64,000 bases of DNA from Oscillospiraceae bacterium (GTDB taxonomy: Bacteria; Bacillota; Clostridia; Oscillospirales; Ruminococcaceae). A model generated the notes under the pieces. That model did not search any database. It was given only the letters and a program-made list of their open reading frames with translations, and was not told the DNA's origin. Both the position numbers and the translations under genes were made by a program. The stretch covers positions 62,001 through 126,000 of the forward strand of contig JAFRTG010000036.1 in the NCBI GenBank assembly GCA_017427265.1. The letters run 5' to 3'. This document shows positions 42,045-53,222 of the stretch, in pieces. Numbering within the stretch: the first letter of the stretch is position 1; every line of letters begins with the position of its first letter.

Positions 42045-42086
42045 ATGTAATGGGTTTACATGCATTCCGGTGATTGGAGGATCAAA

Positions 42087-42746
42087 ATGGCTTTGGTATC
42101 AGTCTCTATTCTGAACGGCGATTTGTCGCATCTTGCGCAGGTGGCCGATACAATCGCAGATGCGGACGCGGATCTGCTGCATTATGATGTGATGGACGGC
42201 AATTTTGTTGACAACCTGTCGTTCGGACTTCCCGTGCTGAGCAGTCTGAAGCCGCATGTTCGTGTGCCGGTGGATGTACATCTGATGATACGGGAGCCGC
42301 TCCGCTATGCGGAACGGTTTGTCAGAGCAGGTGCAGATCTGCTTTCTTTTCATATTGAATCTGATTCCGATCCGGCGGAAACCGTGCGCGAGATTCACCG
42401 TCTCGGCATTCATGCGGGCATTGCGGTCTCACCGGAAACGCCTGCGGAATCGGTATTTCCGCTGCTCGGAATTCTGGAGCCGGATGATTTTATTCTGATG
42501 ATGACGGTGCATCCGGGACTCGGCGGACAGCAGTTTATGCCGGAGGTGCTCCCGAAAATCCGGACACTCCGCCGGAGAATGGAAGCGGAGCAGCTGCCGC
42601 TGCATATTGAAGTGGACGGCGGCATCAATGAAGTAACCGGTGCCGCCTGCCGGGAAGCCGGCGCGGATTATCTGGTTGCGGGTTCGTTTGTGCTTTGTAC
42701 GGAGGATCCGGCTGCGGCTGTGCGTGCGCTGAAAAAGCCGCTCTGA
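42087..42746 (+). CDS. rpe: Ribulose-phosphate 3-epimerase
   Basis: A 219-residue TIM-barrel epimerase that interconverts ribulose 5-phosphate and xylulose 5-phosphate in the pentose phosphate pathway. Motifs are VSILNGDLSHL, HYDVMDGNFVDNLSFG (metal His/Asp), VDVHLMIREP, MTVHPGLGGQQF and IEVDGGIN. An allulose-6-phosphate epimerase is a closely related alternative. The ATG at 42087 follows TTGGAGG; the open frame begins 9 codons earlier over the promoter region. It stands alone, convergent with the MecA-like gene. Confidence 0.93.
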   Translation: MALVSVSILNGDLSHLAQVADTIADADADLLHYDVMDGNFVDNLSFGLPVLSSLKPHVRVPVDVHLMIREPLRYAERFVRAGADLLSFHIESDSDPAETVREIHRLGIHAGIAVSPETPAESVFPLLGILEPDDFILMMTVHPGLGGQQFMPEVLPKIRTLRRRMEAEQLPLHIEVDGGINEVTGAACREAGADYLVAGSFVLCTEDPAAAVRALKKPL

Positions 42747-42750
42747 TCTG

Positions 42751-43296
42751 TTAAATCAACTGCACGGCGTCCTTTTCGAGCAGGCAGCTGCCGTATTCTG
42801 AGAGCCGTGCGCGGTTCATTGCCGATAAGCGGAACGGCCTGCCGTATTCCAGCAGCAGATGATGCACGGCGGAGGCTTTTTCCCGCTTCAGCTTCAGGGA
42901 AAGGATCCACTGCCTGCGGTACTGATACAGCTGACTGCCGAGGATTGCATCGGATTGCTGACGCAGCAGTGCACAGCATGTTTTCAGGGTGCAGCGGTCT
43001 GCAAATCCGGCTGCCGTGCGGACGGTTCTGCTTCGTTTGCAGGACGGCTCCTCTGCGGTCTGCGCGGTGAAATACGCAGCAAGACTGCCGTCCTCACCGG
43101 TGAGCAGCTCGACCGTGACCGGCAGCGATGTGAACGGAATGCCGCTTGCAAGCTCTGCTTTTGCAAGCATAAATGAAATGAGCTGCAGCATCTGCGGAGA
43201 ATCCGGCGCTGCTGCGGCATCATGAAGAAAGACAGCCAGCTCTTCCGCTGAGAGCTGGACTTTGACGGACTGTGCGGAGAGCCGCTGTACGGTCAT
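42751..43296 (-). CDS. mecA: MecA-like adaptor protein (divergent)
   Basis: A 181-residue protein whose N-terminus MTVQRLSAQSVKVQLSAEEL resembles the MecA opening, and whose C-terminal half (LTGEDGSLAAYFTAQ, then a region rich in Leu and Tyr with LYQYRRQWILSLKL) fits the ClpC-adaptor domain layout. MecA delivers substrates such as ComK to ClpCP in Bacillus. Similarity is limited, so this is a tentative call. Cys-rich stretches (KTCCALLRQQ) are not typical of MecA. It is divergent from the Rnf-like operon with only 58 bases between the starts. Confidence 0.5.
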   Translation of the reverse strand: MTVQRLSAQSVKVQLSAEELAVFLHDAAAAPDSPQMLQLISFMLAKAELASGIPFTSLPVTVELLTGEDGSLAAYFTAQTAEEPSCKRSRTVRTAAGFADRCTLKTCCALLRQQSDAILGSQLYQYRRQWILSLKLKREKASAVHHLLLEYGRPFRLSAMNRARLSEYGSCLLEKDAVQLI

Positions 43297-43354: not shown

Positions 43355-44332
43355 GTGTCAGAACAATCTCAGAACCGAATCCTGTTTGACCGTGCCTGCG
43401 CACTGCTTGCGATTCTGACTGCGGCAGCATACGGCTACGGAATACGGATCTGGCTGCTTGCAGGGACTGCGGCCGGCGTTTCGCTCCTGACGGAATGGAC
43501 TTGCCTTTATCTGCGGCGGAAGCATTTTACGCGGCAGCATCTGGATGCCGGTCTGAGCGGAATCATCCTGATGATGCTGATGCCGCCGACGGTTTCGTTT
43601 TCACTGCTTATCATGTCCTGTATTTTTGCAATTATCATCGGCAGACAGCTGTTCGGCGGCAAGGAAAATCCGGTAATTCATCCTGCAGCCGCAGGCTATT
43701 GCTTTGCCGTTCTCTGCCAGCGCGGTGAAATGATGCAGTTCCCGAAGGAATTCGGTTCGCTGCCGTTATCCGGTCTTGCTGCAGAGCAGCTCTGTGACGG
43801 TGTGAGTACAGTCTGGAACCGGGGCGGCGGGCTTTCCGGTTATCTGACGGACTGGCTCATCGGGCTGCCGAATCAGCCTGTCGGAACAGGCTCTGTTGTG
43901 TTGCTGGCAGTTGCCGCACTGGTTCTGGTCTGCAGACGTTCTGCGTCGGGATGGGTTGTGCTGCCTGCCGTGAGCTTTGCGATGTTCTGCAGTGTGCTGT
44001 TCGGCAGATTCCAGCATCCGGCCGCGCAGATGATCGGCTGCTGTCTGACGAATCAGATGCTGTTCGCAGTTTTGTTTCTCCATGCGGATCCGGATTATGC
44101 CCCGCCGCAGCTTGCAGGCTCGCTGTACGGCATCATTCTGGCCGGAACGGTCATCGTTCTGACGCGGATGCTCCGTGTGACGGATGCGCCTGTCACGGCG
44201 GCAGTGATTCTCTCGCCGGCGGCAATCGCTCTGCGGGAGCTGATGCAGCTTGCAGAACCCGTCAGCGAGGAGAAAGGAGGCGGTGACCGGAATGCGGAAA
44301 AACATCCCGGAAGCACGGCAGCCTTACCGTGA
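43355..44332 (+). CDS. RnfD-like membrane subunit lacking the flavinylation motif
   Basis: A 325-residue protein with about nine membrane helices. It aligns with RnfD/NqrB in DAGLSGIILMMLMPPTVSF, AIIIGRQLFGGKENPVIHPA and TWNR-GYLTDWLIGLPNQPVG-type segments. In functional RnfD a threonine in an SGAT motif carries covalently bound FMN; here the corresponding stretch reads EQLCDGVSTVW with no SGAT, though Thr152 is nearby. The start is a GTG at 43355, just behind a GGAGGGGGAAG Shine-Dalgarno. It overlaps the RnfE-like gene by 41 bases. The rnfC, rnfG and rnfB genes are absent. Confidence 0.78.
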   Translation: MSEQSQNRILFDRACALLAILTAAAYGYGIRIWLLAGTAAGVSLLTEWTCLYLRRKHFTRQHLDAGLSGIILMMLMPPTVSFSLLIMSCIFAIIIGRQLFGGKENPVIHPAAAGYCFAVLCQRGEMMQFPKEFGSLPLSGLAAEQLCDGVSTVWNRGGGLSGYLTDWLIGLPNQPVGTGSVVLLAVAALVLVCRRSASGWVVLPAVSFAMFCSVLFGRFQHPAAQMIGCCLTNQMLFAVLFLHADPDYAPPQLAGSLYGIILAGTVIVLTRMLRVTDAPVTAAVILSPAAIALRELMQLAEPVSEEKGGGDRNAEKHPGSTAALP

Positions 44333-44885
44333 TCCGTTTTTGCTGCAGGGATTGCTGGTCGCACCGGCTGCTGCCTTTGCGGACGCCCTTGCACCGGCAC
44401 TGCTGATTGCGTTCAGCTATGTATGCTTTCTGCTGGCGGTGGTGCCGCTCTCTCTGCTGATTCCGAAGCGCGTGCCGTTTCCGGTTCGCATTTTATTGTA
44501 TTCTGTACTGGGTGGGTTGGTGTATATCCCGGTTGCACTTGGCTGTATGTTTTTGTTCCCGGATGTGACGCCGGGGCTGTATCTGCCGCTTTTGCCGATG
44601 ATGCCGGTTCTGACATTTGCACATGACCGTTATTTTGCGGAAAAGGGTGCGATGCGGAATCTTCTGCGGATGACAGTGAGTGCTCCGCCGGTGCTGATCG
44701 GATTCGGCATCGTGCGTGAGTTGCTCGGAAGCGGAACGCTCTCCGGACGGACGCTGCTGCAGAAGCCGCCGCTTCCGGTTCTGACGACGCCTGCGGGCGG
44801 TCTGCTGCTGCTGACGCTTGTGATGATTGCAGCCGCAGTGCTGACGGGTGAGAACAGAAAGGAGACTGCGGATGCTGACAGCTGA
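44292..44885 (+). CDS. RnfE-like membrane subunit without Fe-S cysteines
   Basis: A 197-residue protein with six membrane helices in the RnfE/NqrD arrangement (PFLLQGLLVAPAAAFADA, VRILLYSVLGGLVYI, LPLLPMMPVLTFAHDRYF, AEKGAMRNLLRM, GIVRELLGSGTLSG). In true RnfE a Cys in the first helix (GLCP) and one in VNCIILG bind the intramembrane [2Fe-2S] cluster with RnfA. Here those positions read LLVAP and MMPVLTF. The C-terminal signature GIVRELLGSGT is well kept, supporting the family call. The ATG is at 44292, after GGAGG. It overlaps the next gene by 14 bases. Confidence 0.78.
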   Translation: MRKNIPEARQPYRDPFLLQGLLVAPAAAFADALAPALLIAFSYVCFLLAVVPLSLLIPKRVPFPVRILLYSVLGGLVYIPVALGCMFLFPDVTPGLYLPLLPMMPVLTFAHDRYFAEKGAMRNLLRMTVSAPPVLIGFGIVRELLGSGTLSGRTLLQKPPLPVLTTPAGGLLLLTLVMIAAAVLTGENRKETADADS

Positions 44886-45432
44886 TCTCTTTCTGATTCT
44901 TGCGCAGAATGTGGTATTTTCGGAGCTGCTCGGTCTGCCGTCGCTTGCAGAGACGGGCAGACGCGGCAAGGGTCTGATTCGCAGCGGCGTGCTTGTGCTG
45001 CTGTTTTGTACTGCCGGCGCGGGTGCGCTGTGCGGTCTGCGGATGCTGATGCCTTCGCAGTATGAGCGTCTGCTGTTTCCGCTCTGCACGGCAGTTGTCT
45101 GCGGTGTTCTGGATCTGCTGGCGATGCTGCTTTGCCGGATTCTTTCCAGCCGGATTGCAGCGGCAGCAGCCCCGTGGATTCATGCTGCGGCATTTTCCTC
45201 GGCTGTGCTCGGAACATTGCTGCACAGCACAGATTATACACATGCAGTCTCCGTCGCATTCCGGTACGGATTTCGGCTCGGCGGCGGGTATTTTCTGGTC
45301 TGCGTGCTGCTGCGGCTTGCAGCGCCCGTTCTGTTCAGCGAAAAGATGCCTGCTGCAGTACGCGGCTGGCGCGGGATCTTTCTCTATGCCGCGCTGCTTG
45401 CGATGGCGGGGGCGTGCATGTTCCCGTCATAA
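44872..45432 (+). CDS. RnfA-like membrane subunit without Fe-S cysteines
   Basis: A 186-residue protein with six membrane helices. It aligns with RnfA/NqrE in LFLILAQNVVFSELLGLPSL and WIHAAAFSSAVLGTLL. The family Cys in GICPFLG and in NCAILG, which coordinate the [2Fe-2S] cluster, are replaced (GLPSLAE and SSAVLG). The start ATG at 44872 follows GGAG 7 bases upstream and overlaps the RnfE-like gene. The layout of RnfA and RnfE as an inverted pair is retained. The other redox subunits are missing, so electron transfer seems unlikely. Confidence 0.75.
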   Translation: MLTADLFLILAQNVVFSELLGLPSLAETGRRGKGLIRSGVLVLLFCTAGAGALCGLRMLMPSQYERLLFPLCTAVVCGVLDLLAMLLCRILSSRIAAAAAPWIHAAAFSSAVLGTLLHSTDYTHAVSVAFRYGFRLGGGYFLVCVLLRLAAPVLFSEKMPAAVRGWRGIFLYAALLAMAGACMFPS

Positions 45433-45458: not shown

Positions 45459-46790
45459 TTGAAACACAGAAAAAAAGGAAGACGCATTTATACATACCGT
45501 GCGCGGAACCGCCGTGTGTTCAGCCGGAATCACCCGATGCGCTCTGCATTCGGAACGGCTGTGCTGCTGATTCTGCTGGGCGTCTGCGGAATCACGGGAT
45601 ACAATATCGTCGGGCCGGTCATGGAGCGGATGCAGCTGGAAGCGGAGACGCCGACCACAACGCCGGATCCCTACTTTGAGACGGAGCATCCTGTGCAGAC
45701 CACAGAGGCGTCTCCTGCAGAAACCGATGTCACGGCGCCGGTCACGACGGTTACCGCATCGGAAGCGACAACAACTGTCACCACCACAACAACGCAGCCT
45801 GCCAAATACGGCGAGGGCGCAACGGTTGCCTATCTGGTTTCCCCGGATGCACTGAGCAACCGCGAAACGCTTGAAGCAGCTGCCAGAAAGATCAGCGCGG
45901 ACGGCTATACATCCATGATTCTGCCGCTGAAGCTGAAGGGCGGTATGCTGACCTTTGCGTCCGAAAATCCGCGCGCGAAGGAATGCGGCGCCTGCAATGA
46001 CGGTATGCTGAAGCTGCGGCAGATGTATAATCTTGCCAAGCGCTGCGGACTGACCTGCATCGGTCAGCTGAGTACGCTCGAAGATCATGTGTATCCCAAT
46101 GTGTATATGGAGGGCTCGTATACATTCCAGAACGGCGCGACCCGCTGGCTCGACAATAAGCCGGAGCAGGGCGGCAAGCCGTGGCTGAATCCCTTTGACG
46201 ATGCATCCGGCAATTATCTTTCGGAGCTTGCCGCGGAGATTGAAAAGGCGGGATTTAAAGGCGTGATCTGCACGGATACCGTGTTCCCGCATTTCTTCAA
46301 TTCCGATGCGGAGCTGCTCGGCAACCGCATTCAGGACGCTGTACAGCGGAAGCAGGCGCTTTCGTCTGTTTTGAACAGAATCTCGGCAGCGGCTTCCGGT
46401 GCATCCTGCTATGTGACGCTGGAAGGACTCGCGGCGGGAACAGAGGAGGCTTTTGATTCCGAGCAGCTGCTGATGCGGCCGGTCGTTGTAGAGATGGATC
46501 CGGCTGCGTATACACAGCCCTTTTCCGTGGGCGAGCAGCGATACGATCCGGCTGCGCTTGCAGAGGACGACCGGCTTGCGATGCTGGCGGCCGCTGCCAA
46601 GCAGGCAATCGGCAATCATGATCTGATTCCGTGTATTTCCGCGGGCGGAAAGACTGCCGCGGAGCTTGACCATATCATCTGCACATTTATTGATGCAGGA
46701 TATCAGACCGTTTACGTGACAGGAGAAACCGGTCAGGCGGAGCCGGCTGAGGACGGCACCACAGAAAGCGAAAGCGCAGATTCCAACTGA
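45459..46790 (+). CDS. Membrane-anchored TIM-barrel-like protein (DUF4015-type glycoside hydrolase candidate)
   Basis: A 443-residue exported protein: basic N-terminus, one membrane helix (AFGTAVLLILLGVCGITGYN), a Thr-rich linker (TTTVTTTTTQPAKYG) and a C-terminal domain of about 330 residues. The domain shows TMILPLKLKGGMLTFASENP-like and FKGVICTDTVFPHFF segments, compatible with a TIM barrel as in DUF4015-type putative glycoside hydrolases; catalytic residues were not identified. The start is a TTG at 45459 behind GAGAGGAG. It is 26 bases downstream of the RnfA-like gene and ends at a strong terminator, so it is likely the last gene of that operon. Confidence 0.6.
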   Translation: MKHRKKGRRIYTYRARNRRVFSRNHPMRSAFGTAVLLILLGVCGITGYNIVGPVMERMQLEAETPTTTPDPYFETEHPVQTTEASPAETDVTAPVTTVTASEATTTVTTTTTQPAKYGEGATVAYLVSPDALSNRETLEAAARKISADGYTSMILPLKLKGGMLTFASENPRAKECGACNDGMLKLRQMYNLAKRCGLTCIGQLSTLEDHVYPNVYMEGSYTFQNGATRWLDNKPEQGGKPWLNPFDDASGNYLSELAAEIEKAGFKGVICTDTVFPHFFNSDAELLGNRIQDAVQRKQALSSVLNRISAAASGASCYVTLEGLAAGTEEAFDSEQLLMRPVVVEMDPAAYTQPFSVGEQRYDPAALAEDDRLAMLAAAAKQAIGNHDLIPCISAGGKTAAELDHIICTFIDAGYQTVYVTGETGQAEPAEDGTTESESADSN

Positions 46791-46834: not shown

Positions 46835-46874
46835 ACTGTTTGACAGACTGATTCTGATTACGGAGGTGTGCGGA

Positions 46875-49800
46875 ATGAACAGAATACGCAGACGGCTTGC
46901 CGGTTTTCTGGCCGGTACGGTTCTTCTGACCGGATGGAACGGCGGATTGCAGCTCCGGAGCCTTGCACCGGCGGAACCGATGTCCGCAGAGCACTTTTGG
47001 GCGCAGCTGCAGACGCGGCCGCCGCAGGAGCATACCGGACGGTTTACGGAGCTTTGCTATTCGCAGGCTGATGAAACGCTGCAATGTGACGGAAAGACAG
47101 TCGGCGCGGATTTCGGCGGGTTTTCTGTCCGGAACGGAATGCTCAAAGCTGAACAGCGTGCTGTTCTGACACAGGCAGAGCTGGATCAGGGGCTGCCGCA
47201 GGACGGTTTTGTTTCGCTTGAAGCAGCTGCGGAGCGAATCGGCTGCACGGTGACACAGCGCGGCGGCAGCCTTTGCGTGACATCGCCGTTTCAGACCGGC
47301 ACGCTGATCGTGAAAGCCGGCGGCAGCTTTGATGCCTGCGGCGGGCAGTCTGTTGCGGCGGACGGCCGCGGTCTGCATGTGCTGCAGTATCCGACGGCAG
47401 CGGATGCCTATTCGGCTTATCAGCAGATTGTGAAGGAACCGCATGTGATTTATGCAGAGCCGGAACGGATTCTGCATACGGCTGAGGCGCCTGCCGGGTT
47501 CAGTTCTGCGGATGCAGAAGCGGATGTGTTCATGTGGGGCTATGCAGCCGTCGATACAGATGCATTCAAGGCGCAGCTCGATGCAGACGGGAATCCGGCC
47601 AATGAGGTCGTTGTCGCTCTGATCGACACCGGTGTCAACGAAAAGCACGACTGGCTGAAAGGACGGATTGCGCCGGGCGGCATGTCCTTTACGGAGGAAG
47701 GCGTCGGCTATACAGATGACCACGGGCACGGTTCGCATACCGGCGGCATCATCGCGCATTCTACCAGAGAAAACGTGAAAATACTCCCGCTGAAAGCACT
47801 GGACGCGAGCGGAAACGGTACTTCGCTGGAGGTTTACTGCGCGATGCTGTATGCAGCGGAATACGGCGCGGACGTTGTCAACATGAGCCTCGGCGGAATC
47901 GGCGATTCGCTGCTGATTCAGGAGGCGGCTGCCGTTCTGGATCGGCAGGAGATTCCCTGCGTGGTCGCTGCCGGAAATGATGCCGCGAACTGCAAATACG
48001 GCAGCCCGGCATGTATAGATTCCGTGGTAACGGTTTCTGCGGTGAAAACGGATATCAATCTGCTGGAACAGTTCGGCTTTTTCGAGCCGGAGCCGGAGAT
48101 GTATTCGCTTGCAGATTTCAGCGATTTCGGCGATGGCATTGATTTTGCCGCGCCGGGTGACAGTATCCTCAGTGCATCGTTCAAATCCTTCGGCGAACTG
48201 TATCTGAAAAGCGGAACCAGTATGGCAGCGCCTTATGTGGCAGCCTGCTTTGCAAATCTTGCGGACTACGACCCGGAGCTGACCTTTGCAGAGCGGTACG
48301 ACCTGCTGAAAAAATATGCGGTCGATCTTGGAGAGCCGGGTTTTGACGATCAGTTCGGTCACGGGATGGTCTGTCTGCGCGGCATCGGCGGCGGTGCGGT
48401 GCAGCAGCTTATCAGTGCGCCGTCGGCTTCTGTGACCGGCGGCACCTATGACGGCCCGTTTCCCGTTACGCTCAGCTGCGATGAGCCCGGCGCCGTGATT
48501 TACTATACGACAGACGGCAGCGTACCGGATCTGGAAAACGGAATGCTGTACGAGGAAGGGGCGGAAATCGAAATCGCCTGCGATACCGTGCTGAACGCGG
48601 TTGCCTTTACCGAAACGCAGCAAAGCCGGATGCTTTCCGTTTCCTATGTGATTGAACTGAAAGCACCGGGATTTTCGGCTGCACCGGGCAGATATGAAGC
48701 AGGAACAGAGCTTGACATCACCCTTTATGCGGCTGCGGGTACGGACATTTACTATACGCTGGACGGCTCTGAGCCGGATCCGGAAACAGCACACAAATAT
48801 GACGGCAGGGAAATCCCCGTGCGTGAAACGACGGTGATCCGGGCGATTGCCGTGCTCGGTTCCCGCCAAAGCCCTGAGGCCGGCGCCGGATATATGATCG
48901 GTGAAGAAGGCGCCGACCGTCTGATTCTTCTCCGCGGAACCGTGCTGGAAGGCTATTACGGCGGCTGGGATGTCCTGAATCTTTCCGAACTGGTTCCGGA
49001 TACTGCGCTGACGGAGCTTGCACCGCGTGTACTGGCCGGACACAGAGAGCTTGAAACCGTGATTCTGCCGGATTCCGTTACAAAAATCGGTGCGGAATGC
49101 TTTGTGGACTGCTTTTCGCTCAAAACAGTGACTGCAAAAGGTGTGACGGAGATCGGCGCGGGGGCATTTGAAAACTGCCGCGGATTGGTGCAGGCAGAGC
49201 TCCCGCTCGTGACGGTGATTCCGGATGCTGCATTCCGGAACTGCACCAATCTGGAAGCTGAGTATCTTTCGGCGGAGCAGATTGTATCCGTCGGGGAATA
49301 TGCGTTTTCGGGCGCGGGACTGAAGGGTGAAATCCGGCTGCCGAATCTGGAATCGGCAGGAGAGGGCGCCTTTTCTCTGATAAAGGCGAGCGTGAATCTG
49401 ATCTTTTCGGAGAAGCTGACGGAAATCCCCGACAAAATGTGCGCCGGAACTGCATTGGAAGACATGACTGCCCCCGGTGTGACCGTCATCGGTGATTATT
49501 ACCTCGGTGATGAGGAAACAGGGCGGGAATTCAACAATCCGGGCGCCTTTGCACTGACATATGAAAAAATCACCCGTGCCGGCGCATACGCATTCGGCGG
49601 AGCCTGTTTCGGGGAAGGTGCGGAATTCGGCACGGCGAATATCCGTTTTGATGCGCTGGAATCCGCGGGAAAGGGTGCGTTTCAGAATTCCAGCTTCGGA
49701 ATCGGTTATTTTCCGCGGCTGAAAAATGTGCCGGATGAAATGTTCCGGGATACCGATTACACCGCCGTTTATCTGGAGCGGGCGGAAACCGTCGGCGACT

Positions 49801-52800
49801 ACGCATTCTGCAGCAGCTGGTGTAAACCAATCGTTGTGCTCGGAGACAGCCTCACCAGAATCGGGAAGCTCACTGCGGGAGCGTTCGAGCAAATCCGGCT
49901 GATTGCCGGCCCGGATCACGAATTTATCCGGGAGATGGTCAGTTACACGGATATTCCGTATGTTGTGACGCCTTCTCTGATGATAACAGACGAAATTGAC
50001 GATGTGCTGCATCTGAATGAAGATCGGTATGTTTCTGCGATTCCGCTGGGATTCGGCGCAGAAGTCGTCTGGGAGCAGGAAGAGAATCAGTCCGGCGACG
50101 GCAGCTGCCGGAAGTTCCGTCTGCCGACGGAGCAGGCCGGTACCTTCGACTGCAAATGCTTTCTGATGAGAAACGGTGAAAAGCTGGCAGAGAAAACACT
50201 GACCTTTACCGTTGAGGATCAGAACGGAACCGTCATCTTTGCGGTCGGAAAGCCGTATCTGATTCCGATGCCGAAGCAGCATTCGACGTCTGCACGCATG
50301 GCGTATCTGCAGTTCTGGGCGGAAGATGACGGAACCTATTATTTCAGCAGCAATGCGGGAACAACAAAAATTTATCTCAGCACGAGCACGCCGGACTCTG
50401 CGGATTATCAGCTTGTACAGTGTGATACGGCACCGGTTTCATGTGACTTAAAATGCGGTGACATCGCTTTTCTGGCGCTGGAGCAGCTGGATGATGCTGA
50501 ATACACATCCTTCTGCGTTTCGGCGGAGCCGCCGGAGCATTCGCTTGGTGCAGACGGTTCCATGAAGCTGGAACATCAGTATTATCCTGCGGGCAGTGAT
50601 TTGACAAAGCTCTCCGCAGCGGTTACGGCCGGCGGGGAAACGCTGACCGAAGGGAAGGACTATGTGCTCTGCACGGCGGAGACTGAGAACGGCGCGTCCG
50701 TTTGCTGTGCGCTGGGAACCGGCCGCTTTTACGGAATGCTCTCGGATGAGATTCGCTTTTATGAGGATTATCAGGCGGGAACGGAGCTGCAGCTGAAAAA
50801 CATCGGCCGGAGCAGGCAGTATTTCCGGATCACGGATGCGCCGGCAGGTACGCTGATCTGCAGCCTGACGCTCCGGGAGAATGCGCTGCGGAGACTGGCA
50901 AACGGCGGTGATGCTGCAAACAGGCTGCTGCGGACGGTTTCCGTTCAGACGGAAATCTGTGATGAAAACGGAAAGAACATCGGCAGGCTTCCGGATGCAG
51001 AAAACGGCACGGCTGTTTCCTTTACGGCTGCGTCGGACGGAGAATACTATCTCAGCGTGTGGAATACATCGGACGGGTGTCTGGAAGATGCAGTGCTGAA
51101 ATCTGTTTCCGGCAAGGCCAATTACTGTATTGCAAACTGCGAAATCAGCAGTACGGAATGCCGCTTTACCGGCTCGCCGTGCGATCCCGGTCTCAAAATC
51201 CGGAACAGCAGCGGCATTGTGCTGAAGGAGGGAACGGATTATCAGGTTGTGACGGTCAGCAATGTTCTGCCCGGCTTCATGACCTCGGTTATTACCGGAA
51301 CCGGACAGTATTACGGCATGGCCGCTGTGAAAACAGGCATCAGCCATGTGTTCCGGAATGCGGCAAGTATTTCGGCGGACAGTACGTTTTCCTGCGGCAG
51401 CGGATGTCACCTGTTTCTGATCTGGACGGAGCATGGCAGGCAATATCTGCTGAACAGCGAGCAAGACGGCCGGGAATATGATATCTGTTACTATCCGGTC
51501 GGTGACGCCGCACTGCAGGATACGGAGGAATCCGCATGGCGGAATGACAATGTCATCTGCAGCGGCGATGTTGTGGAGGGCTGCGGCTATGCCTACCTGA
51601 TGATCCGGAATCAGTATGAACCAACGCTGTTTTCGTTCTCAGCTATTGACGATTCCGCTTCGATCAACGATTTTTCGGCGGCATCTGTCATAATGAATGA
51701 CATGGTCTTTACCGGTGCGGCATTGACGCCGAAGCCGACGGTGATGCTTGACGGCAAAGTGCTGCAGGAAGGCGTTGACTATACGGTGAATGTGCCGGAG
51801 CTGGTCGCGGCCTGCGGAACCTATCAGCTGACGCTGGTCGGAACGGGCTCACTGACCGGAATCCGGAAGGTCGTATTCAGCGTTGTCATGCCGGAGCAGA
51901 CGGAAATCCCGCTTCTGCGCGGCGATCTGGAAAAAACAGAAACCGCTGCGGCAAATCACGCGCTTCTTTACCGCTGGATTCCGGAAACATACAGCTACGT
52001 GATGAAGAAAAAAAGCGCCGTGTATGTCCGGCTGCAGGTGCTCAACGAAAACGGCATGGCCGTCGGAGACTGCAGCGGCATCGGAACGGATGCATCCGAA
52101 GTGAAAACGGAACCCGGCAAGGTTTACTATATTACCGTTTCCCCGAAGGTCCCGGAACAGGAAGCTGAGCTGGAATTCTCGCTGCATATGGCAGGGAAGC
52201 TGATCGCGGACTGTGAGATTACCGGCGAAACATTTCTGCCGTACAGCGCGGACAGGCCGTATCCGGACATTACGGTGCGGGACGGCGGGCGTCTGCTGAC
52301 GGAGGGAACGGACTATACGCTTCTGCGCAATCAGTTCCTGCGCACCGGCTACAATGAGATTCTTGTGCGCGGGGCAGGGGATTATGCGGGTGAAACGACA
52401 TTTTCCTATGTGCTGTATCCCGATCTGCAGGAGCTGCTGCCGGAACTGACACCGGAGTATATTTCTGCGGGAGAATCCTGCACGGCAACATGCAGCGATC
52501 CGGAGGACCGAGGGCTTTATGTGTTCACAGCGCCGTCAGACGGCACATATTATCTGGAGGCACCTGCGCATGAGAACTGCGGTGTGGTTTTTCTCGTATA
52601 TGACGAAAATATGCAGGTTTACCCTTATCATCAGATCGGTTTTTCTATGAAGAAGGGCGAATCAATCCGTGTGCTCGTGCTCCGCGACTGGCTCGAAAAC
52701 GACTTCGGTCAGACTGTGTTCTTCAGGATCACCGAGAATGCACCGGTTGTTCAGTTTGAGTCCGACGGCTACGGCTACCTCATTGAGGACGGCTATGCTT

Positions 52801-53222
52801 CTGTCATCAGTCTGCCGCCGAACCAGCTCGGTTATGTTCTGCCGGATGTCGTTACGGACCCGGAAACCGGGATCAGCGGCGAGGTCAACAATATCATGAA
52901 CTTTCTGACGATGCGCGGCCGGAAGGATATTTTCTACGGAAATGTGACGATCTACGGGAATAAGGGCGGCAGCGTCGAAGCGTATTGCAGAGAATACGGA
53001 TATTGTTTTGCAGCGCTGGATCCGGTCTGCAGGGTGCGCGGCGATATCACCGGCGACGACCTTGTCAATGAGGACGATATCCGCACGCTGATCCGGTTTA
53101 TTACGGAGTGTGCAGGCATCATGCTGCCCGGCAAAGCGGCGGAAGCGGCCGATCTGGACGGCGACGGCATCATCACGATTCTTGATGCGGCGATTATGGC
53201 AAAAATTGCTTCTCAGACATAA
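46875..53222 (+). CDS. Secreted subtilase with LRR repeats and type I dockerin
   Basis: A 2115-residue exported protein. After a signal peptide comes an I9-like propeptide (to about residue 210, YAEPERILHT), then a complete S8 peptidase: Asp251 in ALIDTGVN, His285 in HGSHTGG, Asn368 in AAGNDAAN and Ser449 in SGTSMAAPY. Two CHB_HEX_C_1-like domains (about 514 and 596, each with YYTTDG/YYTLDG), BspA-type leucine-rich repeats (about 690-1010) and four repeats with an L(T/K/Q)EGxDY motif (near residues 1259, 1452, 1632 and 1810) follow. The last 64 residues are a dockerin with two Ca-binding loops (GDITGDDLVNEDDI and ADLDGDGIITILDA). A cellulosome or cohesin partner is implied. The ATG at 46875 follows CGGAGG 8 bases upstream. 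Confidence 0.9.
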   Translation: MNRIRRRLAGFLAGTVLLTGWNGGLQLRSLAPAEPMSAEHFWAQLQTRPPQEHTGRFTELCYSQADETLQCDGKTVGADFGGFSVRNGMLKAEQRAVLTQAELDQGLPQDGFVSLEAAAERIGCTVTQRGGSLCVTSPFQTGTLIVKAGGSFDACGGQSVAADGRGLHVLQYPTAADAYSAYQQIVKEPHVIYAEPERILHTAEAPAGFSSADAEADVFMWGYAAVDTDAFKAQLDADGNPANEVVVALIDTGVNEKHDWLKGRIAPGGMSFTEEGVGYTDDHGHGSHTGGIIAHSTRENVKILPLKALDASGNGTSLEVYCAMLYAAEYGADVVNMSLGGIGDSLLIQEAAAVLDRQEIPCVVAAGNDAANCKYGSPACIDSVVTVSAVKTDINLLEQFGFFEPEPEMYSLADFSDFGDGIDFAAPGDSILSASFKSFGELYLKSGTSMAAPYVAACFANLADYDPELTFAERYDLLKKYAVDLGEPGFDDQFGHGMVCLRGIGGGAVQQLISAPSASVTGGTYDGPFPVTLSCDEPGAVIYYTTDGSVPDLENGMLYEEGAEIEIACDTVLNAVAFTETQQSRMLSVSYVIELKAPGFSAAPGRYEAGTELDITLYAAAGTDIYYTLDGSEPDPETAHKYDGREIPVRETTVIRAIAVLGSRQSPEAGAGYMIGEEGADRLILLRGTVLEGYYGGWDVLNLSELVPDTALTELAPRVLAGHRELETVILPDSVTKIGAECFVDCFSLKTVTAKGVTEIGAGAFENCRGLVQAELPLVTVIPDAAFRNCTNLEAEYLSAEQIVSVGEYAFSGAGLKGEIRLPNLESAGEGAFSLIKASVNLIFSEKLTEIPDKMCAGTALEDMTAPGVTVIGDYYLGDEETGREFNNPGAFALTYEKITRAGAYAFGGACFGEGAEFGTANIRFDALESAGKGAFQNSSFGIGYFPRLKNVPDEMFRDTDYTAVYLERAETVGDYAFCSSWCKPIVVLGDSLTRIGKLTAGAFEQIRLIAGPDHEFIREMVSYTDIPYVVTPSLMITDEIDDVLHLNEDRYVSAIPLGFGAEVVWEQEENQSGDGSCRKFRLPTEQAGTFDCKCFLMRNGEKLAEKTLTFTVEDQNGTVIFAVGKPYLIPMPKQHSTSARMAYLQFWAEDDGTYYFSSNAGTTKIYLSTSTPDSADYQLVQCDTAPVSCDLKCGDIAFLALEQLDDAEYTSFCVSAEPPEHSLGADGSMKLEHQYYPAGSDLTKLSAAVTAGGETLTEGKDYVLCTAETENGASVCCALGTGRFYGMLSDEIRFYEDYQAGTELQLKNIGRSRQYFRITDAPAGTLICSLTLRENALRRLANGGDAANRLLRTVSVQTEICDENGKNIGRLPDAENGTAVSFTAASDGEYYLSVWNTSDGCLEDAVLKSVSGKANYCIANCEISSTECRFTGSPCDPGLKIRNSSGIVLKEGTDYQVVTVSNVLPGFMTSVITGTGQYYGMAAVKTGISHVFRNAASISADSTFSCGSGCHLFLIWTEHGRQYLLNSEQDGREYDICYYPVGDAALQDTEESAWRNDNVICSGDVVEGCGYAYLMIRNQYEPTLFSFSAIDDSASINDFSAASVIMNDMVFTGAALTPKPTVMLDGKVLQEGVDYTVNVPELVAACGTYQLTLVGTGSLTGIRKVVFSVVMPEQTEIPLLRGDLEKTETAAANHALLYRWIPETYSYVMKKKSAVYVRLQVLNENGMAVGDCSGIGTDASEVKTEPGKVYYITVSPKVPEQEAELEFSLHMAGKLIADCEITGETFLPYSADRPYPDITVRDGGRLLTEGTDYTLLRNQFLRTGYNEILVRGAGDYAGETTFSYVLYPDLQELLPELTPEYISAGESCTATCSDPEDRGLYVFTAPSDGTYYLEAPAHENCGVVFLVYDENMQVYPYHQIGFSMKKGESIRVLVLRDWLENDFGQTVFFRITENAPVVQFESDGYGYLIEDGYASVISLPPNQLGYVLPDVVTDPETGISGEVNNIMNFLTMRGRKDIFYGNVTIYGNKGGSVEAYCREYGYCFAALDPVCRVRGDITGDDLVNEDDIRTLIRFITECAGIMLPGKAAEAADLDGDGIITILDAAIMAKIASQT

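Follow-up and report, generated by a model that had tools for sequence, protein, structure and literature searches.

What is a membrane core of Rnf, the ferredoxin:NAD+ oxidoreductase, kept for once the residues that hold its redox cofactors are gone? The question is raised by a 64,000-nucleotide stretch of an Oscillospiraceae genome (GenBank assembly GCA_017427265.1, contig JAFRTG010000036.1, positions 62,001 to 126,000; hereafter the window), in which three overlapping genes on the plus strand encode membrane proteins resembling RnfD, RnfE and RnfA. A first-pass annotation had proposed that these proteins lost their cofactor sites and were either retained for another purpose or are decaying. 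The genes are D' (43355..44332, GTG start, 325 aa), E' (44292..44885, ATG start, 197 aa) and A' (44872..45432, ATG start, 186 aa). Their coordinates were checked, as were the overlaps, which amount to 41 nt between the end of D' and the start of E' and 14 nt between the end of E' and the start of A'; as had been reported, no rnfB, rnfC or rnfG adjoins the trio. By reading of the sequence, each start is preceded by a purine-rich Shine-Dalgarno-like stretch. The overlaps and the gene order suggest that D', E' and A' form one operon.

D' matched the Pfam family PF03116 with 109.6 bits (cut-off 27.7) and A' matched PF02508 with 25.5 bits (cut-off 23.8). E' reached 23.0 bits against PF02508, just below the cut-off, and the doubt left by this score was removed by profile-profile alignment (hhalign), in which E' matched with a probability of 99.81 and an E-value of 4e-29 (D', 100 and 1e-56; A' against canonical RnfA, 99.78 and 3e-28). 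The predicted models of D' and E' have the same folds as RnfD and RnfE. Foldseek on the E' model alone gave weak E-values (best 2.6e-3), and here the claim is carried by the VIA-align Z score and hhalign. Comparison of sequences and predicted models identifies the three subunits as RnfD, RnfE and RnfA, with a matching predicted fold for the first two.

In Acetobacterium woodii Rnf, the membrane [2Fe-2S] cluster is held by RnfA C25 and C113 and by RnfE C25 and C108; RnfD carries flavin mononucleotide (FMN) on T156 and contacts riboflavin through N123 and D249 (PMC11889175, available text). The residue of Clostridium tetanomorphum RnfD that matches D249, D248, is a proposed Na+ site according to the available part of the source. 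In the alignments, the two RnfA ligands are replaced by A' P23 (in GLPS, 44938..44940) and S110 (in FSSAVLG, 45199..45201), and the two RnfE ligands by E' A24 (in LLVAP, 44361..44363) and P105 (in MMPVLT, 44604..44606), all on the plus strand, which bears out the substitutions read earlier from the motifs alone. The SGAT threonine of RnfD had likewise been said to be replaced at DGVST. It is a non-Thr residue of D' in every alignment, G149 (43799..43801) in the larger one and another in the others, the region being gappy. The riboflavin contact N123 is occupied by H109 (43679..43681). Three positions are retained: D' D245 (44087..44089) at RnfD D249, E' R66 (44487..44489) at the gating R67 of RnfE, and E' D112 (44625..44627), still acidic, at RnfE E115. 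By sequence comparison, every membrane [2Fe-2S] ligand and the FMN-threonine are replaced in D'E'A' of the window. A shift of the cysteines to other conserved positions, an objection foreseen in the first-pass annotation, was rejected: no invariant Cys was found in the genus alignment of E' (15 rows), and that of A' (14 rows) holds a single one, C182, which lies near the C-terminus and off the cluster positions.

The same losses were observed in relatives (repeat copies of loci fetched twice and matches below 50 bits were left out of this set). RnfE C25 and C108 were each kept in 0/56 E' proteins, RnfA C25 in 0/55 A' proteins and RnfA C113 in 25/55, and all four cysteines were present in 11/11 canonical RnfA/RnfE. 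In the larger D alignment, T156 is Thr in 3/75 D' and Ser in 36/75, against Thr in 26/26 canonical RnfD; a smaller, also gappy alignment gave Thr in 5/65 D', and the column is mostly Gly in the window's genus. N123 is kept in 34/50 D' proteins of the family and order and in 0/25 of the genus. Position D249 is Asp in 60/75 D' and acidic in 67/75. The canonical D and C sets of the ligand comparison (27 each) include the orphan rnfC-rnfD pairs described below, and the larger D alignment separates 26 canonical from 15 orphan sequences. Alone among ten order-level module loci read later, L203 has an E' that retains the first cysteine (GLCP). This locus (L203:4480-8008) consists of D', about 800 bp with no identified gene, E' with a long C-terminal extension, and then A', and may be an intermediate.

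No complete canonical Rnf was found elsewhere in the window's genome, and this candidate was rejected. The look-up of rnfB, rnfC and rnfG recommended earlier yielded only an rnfC-rnfD pair on contig 33 (L035:5936-8187 in G000, about 81.9-84.2 kb), in which the sole other RnfD of the genome directly follows a canonical RnfC (365 bits), with no rnfG, rnfE, rnfA or rnfB after it. That RnfC is the only one over the cut-off in the genome, and the module locus has none. PF02508 was matched in this genome by E' and A' only. The best RnfB score, 37.7 bits, stayed below the cut-off of 68.7, and the search for RnfG returned one FMN_bind protein over the cut-off, encoded beside ApbE and unmatched by the RnfG query. 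An rnfC-rnfD pair without a canonical RnfA/E match occurs in 15 of the 30 genus genomes (the window's and 14 congeners). Canonical RnfA/E were found in six congeners, with a complete operon read in G130 and G141 and up to the contig end in G126. Among the orphan RnfD proteins, 15/15 have N123 and D249 and 13/15 have T156.

The same gene set was sought in related genomes, as the first-pass annotation had advised, and was found across the family and the order. An RnfD-like match to D' (E up to 0.001) is present in 112/119 family genomes, a count that mixes D' and canonical RnfD. Loci of the family and order were picked by score, not at random. Outside the genus, 39 family loci with D' also hold E' (38), A' (37), an upstream RnfC-like gene (14), the gene of a DUF4015 protein (34), rpe (36) and a mecA-like gene (25), some of the absences being due to short or contig-end loci. 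The RnfC-like subunit that relatives carry in the module, C', was defined as an RnfC-like protein scoring below 150 bits to the RnfC of the window's genome. Both [4Fe-4S] CxxCxxCxxxCP motifs are present in 14/14 C' proteins; in 14/14, GxGGAG is without its first glycine and NGAECE without its cysteine, and these sites read mostly as a DExDG-type sequence and mostly as DDE (at ECE). No RnfB or RnfG was found at the module loci read. Within the genus, rpe and the mecA-like gene are each present at 21/22 loci and C' at 0/22. D'E'A' is carried by 18 of the 30 genomes (split between contigs in one); in five, D' is directly followed by the DUF4015 gene, in one a D' fragment lies at a contig end, and six genomes, 75-96% complete, have no D' match. 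The five loci with D' but no E'A' (L036, L099, L100, L102 and L103, genus g1) raise the possibility that D' may act alone.

Selection was evaluated from the ratio of nonsynonymous to synonymous substitution rates (dN/dS), computed by YN00, with NG86 as the fallback when YN00 failed; saturated pairs, included up to dS 2.5, enter only the medians. Among congeners, the four closest pairs (drawn from five genomes in two clusters, with dS of at most about 0.5) gave dN/dS of 0.10-0.21 for D', 0.13-0.23 for E' and 0.17-0.24 for A', compared with 0.08-0.20 for rpe and 0.10-0.24 for mecA. D' gave 0.157 at dS 0.9 in a pair without E'A'. By this comparison, made as the first-pass annotation had proposed, D'E'A' are under purifying selection in close congeners.

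A second ligand-less lineage, g343 (family f92), was found in the same order. Four of its five genomes read (G539, G559, G575 and G614) carry C-D-E-A ahead of the DUF4015 gene and lack G and B, and these sets are the only PF02508 matches in the four genomes; the fifth, G590, has a full rnf operon and then the DUF4015 gene. In the g343 set R, V, F and G stand in place of the four cluster cysteines and N in place of T156, and the glycine motif of RnfC is gone; N123, D249 and both RnfC [4Fe-4S] motifs are kept. C and D gave dN/dS of 0.04-0.08, A of 0.08-0.11 and E of 0.17-0.31. The long N-terminal extension of the g343 E was cut (last 230 residues in the trees; last 205 codons in the dN/dS analysis, for the control family too). 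This extension, seen at L192:5352-6863 and L206:5153-6697, comprises about 280 low-complexity, charged residues and lies where canonical operons hold rnfG. In the trees, the g343 C nests in the f92 canonical clade (100/98; 8 f92 rows), as does D, with L193 (98/96). The ligand loss in g343 is likely, though not proven, to be of independent origin.

Searches were extended to the order and the class. Of 245 genomes in the order-wide search, 20 loci picked by score were read and comprise ten of the module type, nine canonical operons and the one g343 case. When the class was searched, 288 of 391 genomes gave a match at E up to 1e-20, and the best 30 loci returned consist of 21 canonical operons and nine modules, namely the window, three more of its family and five of f5, a family of the same order. 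A class-wide module was rejected, as the module loci among these 30 all belong to the window's family or to f5. At L200, in a related family, a complete rnfCDGEAB operon stands between rpe and the DUF4015 gene; the DUF4015 gene follows rnfB at L193 and L199, and a mecA-like gene precedes rnfC at L197. These loci make a full rnf operon at this address the most likely ancestor of the module. In such genomes (G425 and G352, for example) canonical RnfA/E are also encoded at other sites, and the copies coexist. All module sequences fall on one side of a branch with support 100/99 in the D tree (74 chosen rows, with L192 as the sole g343 row) and the C tree (51 rows); the corresponding branch has support 74/83 in the E tree and 93/66 in the A tree. 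The E, A and C trees were built without the near-copies L205 and L207, the C tree also without L186 and L196, and the approximately unbiased (AU) test, with fewer rows, also without L203, L187, L190 and L186. Gene calls by script used the first start codon of each open frame, and some overlaps in these calls look too large.

Without a ferredoxin entry, an extracytosolic shuttle, cluster ligands and an FMN-threonine, the window's module cannot run the known Rnf electron path. Our preferred explanation, held tentatively and with a little less than an even chance, is that D'E'A' are the membrane core of a redox-dead Rnf derivative that lets a cation or small solute pass independently of redox chemistry. 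The ancestor would have been a C-D-E-A set that arose from an rnfCDGEAB operon in the neighbourhood of rpe/mecA and the DUF4015 gene. Its losses would have been the RnfB ferredoxin entry, the RnfG extracytosolic FMN shuttle, the membrane cluster and, in RnfC, the FMN/NADH exit site, and the window's genus would later have lost C' as well. A' and E', free of the gating cluster, and D', whose predicted model shares its fold with the Amt/Rh ammonium and urea transporters, would then form the pathway, of which the membrane-anchored DUF4015 protein is perhaps a part. D' shows 4-13% identity to these transporters among the rows listed, and no Pfam match other than PF03116 was found for it at E up to 1, with no Amt or urea-transporter match listed. 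The position of RnfE R67 is Arg in 60/66 E' (21/25 in canonical RnfE, the rest Lys) and position 115 is acidic in 44/66, with median retention of canonically conserved columns at 0.30 for RnfE and 0.37 for RnfD. In the available text of PMC11889175, R67A and E115K of A. woodii RnfE abolish autotrophic growth. Passage is preferred to a pure scaffold because R67 and the acidic position 115 of RnfE and D249 of RnfD are retained.

Several observations weigh against this explanation. The available text of the same source reports wild-type growth of E115A, which makes position 115 a weak argument, and T110G stopped autotrophic growth. Further residues of the Na+ path of A. woodii have disappeared from most D'E'A' sequences: T110 of RnfA is Ala in 43/65 A', and no Glu is among the residues listed for A' at RnfA E88. 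RnfE N107 and RnfA N112 are gone in the window's genus and kept in most of the family. The selection results are also mixed. The next pairs (dS 0.5-0.8) gave dN/dS of 0.31-0.40 for D', 0.40 for E' and 0.25 for A', one A' pair reached 1.14, and the medians over all genus pairs, many of them saturated, were 0.43, 0.54 and 0.45 for D', E' and A' (controls: rpe 0.22, mecA 0.33, orphan and canonical rnfC and rnfD 0.25-0.26). The close pairs do not include the window's own genome, which has no close relative in the set. Set against the close pairs, these values indicate a module that evolves faster than its neighbours but is under constraint. Five congeners without E'A' and six without a D' match also make the module probably dispensable. 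As for g343, its A stands just outside the canonical sequences in the first tree (95/97), although a grouping with f92 was not rejected (AU p 0.57), and its E falls outside (100/99) with the f92 grouping rejected (AU p 0.0075), a rejection that rests on long branches and unusual composition.

The main rival to cation or small-solute passage, which is preferred over it with modest confidence, is that D'E'A' conduct nothing and serve as a structural or assembly platform for DUF4015 or another envelope protein. It is unlikely, yet it accounts for the strand of the DUF4015 gene, which was that of the module at every locus with a detected copy (54 of the 61 examined; median gap 30 bp), the five D'-only congeners included, and for the structural look of the best-kept columns (RE and GG of RnfE; N, P and G of RnfA). 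However, complete canonical rnf operons (L193, L199, L200, L208, L210-L212) are likewise followed by a DUF4015 gene, so that the link is not specific to apo modules; at five module loci of f5 (L185-L189), none was detected within the fetched stretch, and R67 and D249 are kept above background. We regard as improbable a residual redox function in relatives with C', in which electrons would still pass between D' riboflavin and the two [4Fe-4S] clusters of C' and the ancestor would have been a reduced relay. Rnf riboflavin does pass electrons to the RnfC clusters (PMC9588780, available part), and such a relay is consistent with the intact cluster motifs of all 14 C' proteins, with family D' that keep N123 (34/50) and D249 (40/50) and have Ser for T156 (34/50), and with the first cysteine still held by E' of L203. 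The same C' proteins nevertheless lack the GxGGAG glycine and the NGAECE cysteine throughout, both cysteines are missing from all 56 E' and the first from all 55 A', and RnfB and RnfG were not seen at the module loci read. In the window's genus, with C' absent from all 22 loci, N123 from all 25 D' and T156 mostly Gly, a relay hardly holds.

That the genes are a decaying remnant of an Rnf operon not yet lost would agree with the graded losses (C' from the window's genus, E'A' from five congeners, the D' match from six) and with their evolving faster than rpe. It is nonetheless very improbable: the frames are open in dozens of species across an order, the synteny is conserved, dN/dS is 0.10-0.24 in close pairs, and g343 shows apparent convergence with low values for C, D and A. 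Simple pseudogene decay was rejected on the close-pair and g343 dN/dS and on the synteny. We give just as small a chance to a hybrid complex of E'A' (and D') with the canonical RnfC-RnfD of contig 33. The 15 genomes that hold this pair without a canonical RnfA/E match speak for it, as does the strong constraint on orphan rnfC and rnfD in close pairs (dN/dS 0.05-0.11). Yet rnfC-rnfD persist where E'A' were not found (G119, G127, G128, G142 and G145), and E'A' persist beside canonical RnfA/E (G125, G126, G129, G130 and G141); E'A' lack the cluster ligands and RnfB was not found. With each found without the other in several genomes, a hybrid is unlikely, and E'A' as obligate partners of the orphan pair were rejected, co-occurrence failing both ways.

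Of the two outcomes first proposed, a module kept for another purpose and not decaying is supported by the synteny, the dN/dS values and the second lineage with the same outcome. A redox-less version kept by selection suggests that the Rnf membrane core is able to do a job that needs no electrons. We consider it possible, though we would not yet expect it, that an electron-independent function of the Rnf core was selected at least twice in one order, most likely as a redox-uncoupled pathway for Na+/H+ or a solute. It would have arisen once as an order-wide paralogue able to coexist with canonical Rnf, and once by conversion, in a group of species, of the sole Rnf into a ligand-less C-D-E-A set.

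Compared with the Rnf complex (RnfABCDGE; A. woodii 9eri, C. tetanomorphum 7zc6, Azotobacter vinelandii 8ahx), the module has homologous D, E and A subunits, the gene order C-D-E-A (C' in relatives) and largely retained R67, acidic 115 and D249 positions. It differs in that RnfB and RnfG are missing, A'/E' have no [2Fe-2S] ligands, D' has no FMN-Thr and C', absent from the window's genus, has no FMN/NADH motifs. Na+-translocating NADH:quinone oxidoreductase (NQR; NqrABCDEF) kept the cluster and covalent FMNs and recruited NqrF (PMC12174285, available part, and general knowledge); no recruited redox subunit was found at the module. Two-subunit NQR/RNF-like systems, made up of an RnfG-like protein and an RnfD fused to a PF00175 NAD-binding domain, are read as transferring electrons one way (PMC8238504 and PMC10979944, available parts). 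These are also reduced Rnf derivatives without a conserved RnfD-type flavinylation threonine, but no E/A pair is described for them in the available parts, whereas the module lacks G and keeps E/A. No PF00175 match was found in D' (E up to 1), and no RnfG-like gene was detected at the locus. Among the literature matches listed, mostly without subscription papers, we recognised no description of an apo-Rnf or of a C-D-E-A module.

Rnf has been studied as a redox-driven Na+/H+ pump, and mutation of the cluster cysteines in A. woodii abolishes activity and growth (PMC11889175, available text). Natural ligand-less cores allow a direct test of electron-free ion translocation by RnfA/E and RnfD. They also call for caution in annotation, as genomes of this order scored as Rnf carriers may be without the residues for ferredoxin:NAD+ energy conservation. 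The carriers are gut and rumen bacteria of one order, and a mis-scored Rnf would mislead metabolic models of the gut and rumen.

Upstream of the module, rpe (42060..42746, plus strand; PF00834, 208 bits) encodes ribulose-phosphate 3-epimerase and is its conserved left neighbour; a MecA-like adaptor gene (42751..43296; PF05389, 48.4 bits), a frequent neighbour, lies between them on the opposite strand. Downstream, the DUF4015 gene (45462..46790, plus strand, TTG start; PF13200, 39.1 bits) encodes a putative glycosyl hydrolase domain with, as predicted from its sequence, one N-terminal membrane anchor, and is probably the last gene of the D'E'A' operon. A scan for the sigma-70 consensus found no promoter-like site, and terminator-like sites number 14 against a shuffle mean of 4.2, most of them within genes by reading of the coordinates. 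Further downstream (46866-53222), the window encodes a subtilase of 2118 aa with BspA-type leucine-rich repeats, chitobiase-type C-terminal domains and a type I dockerin, a partial relative of which is found at the same place in G108.

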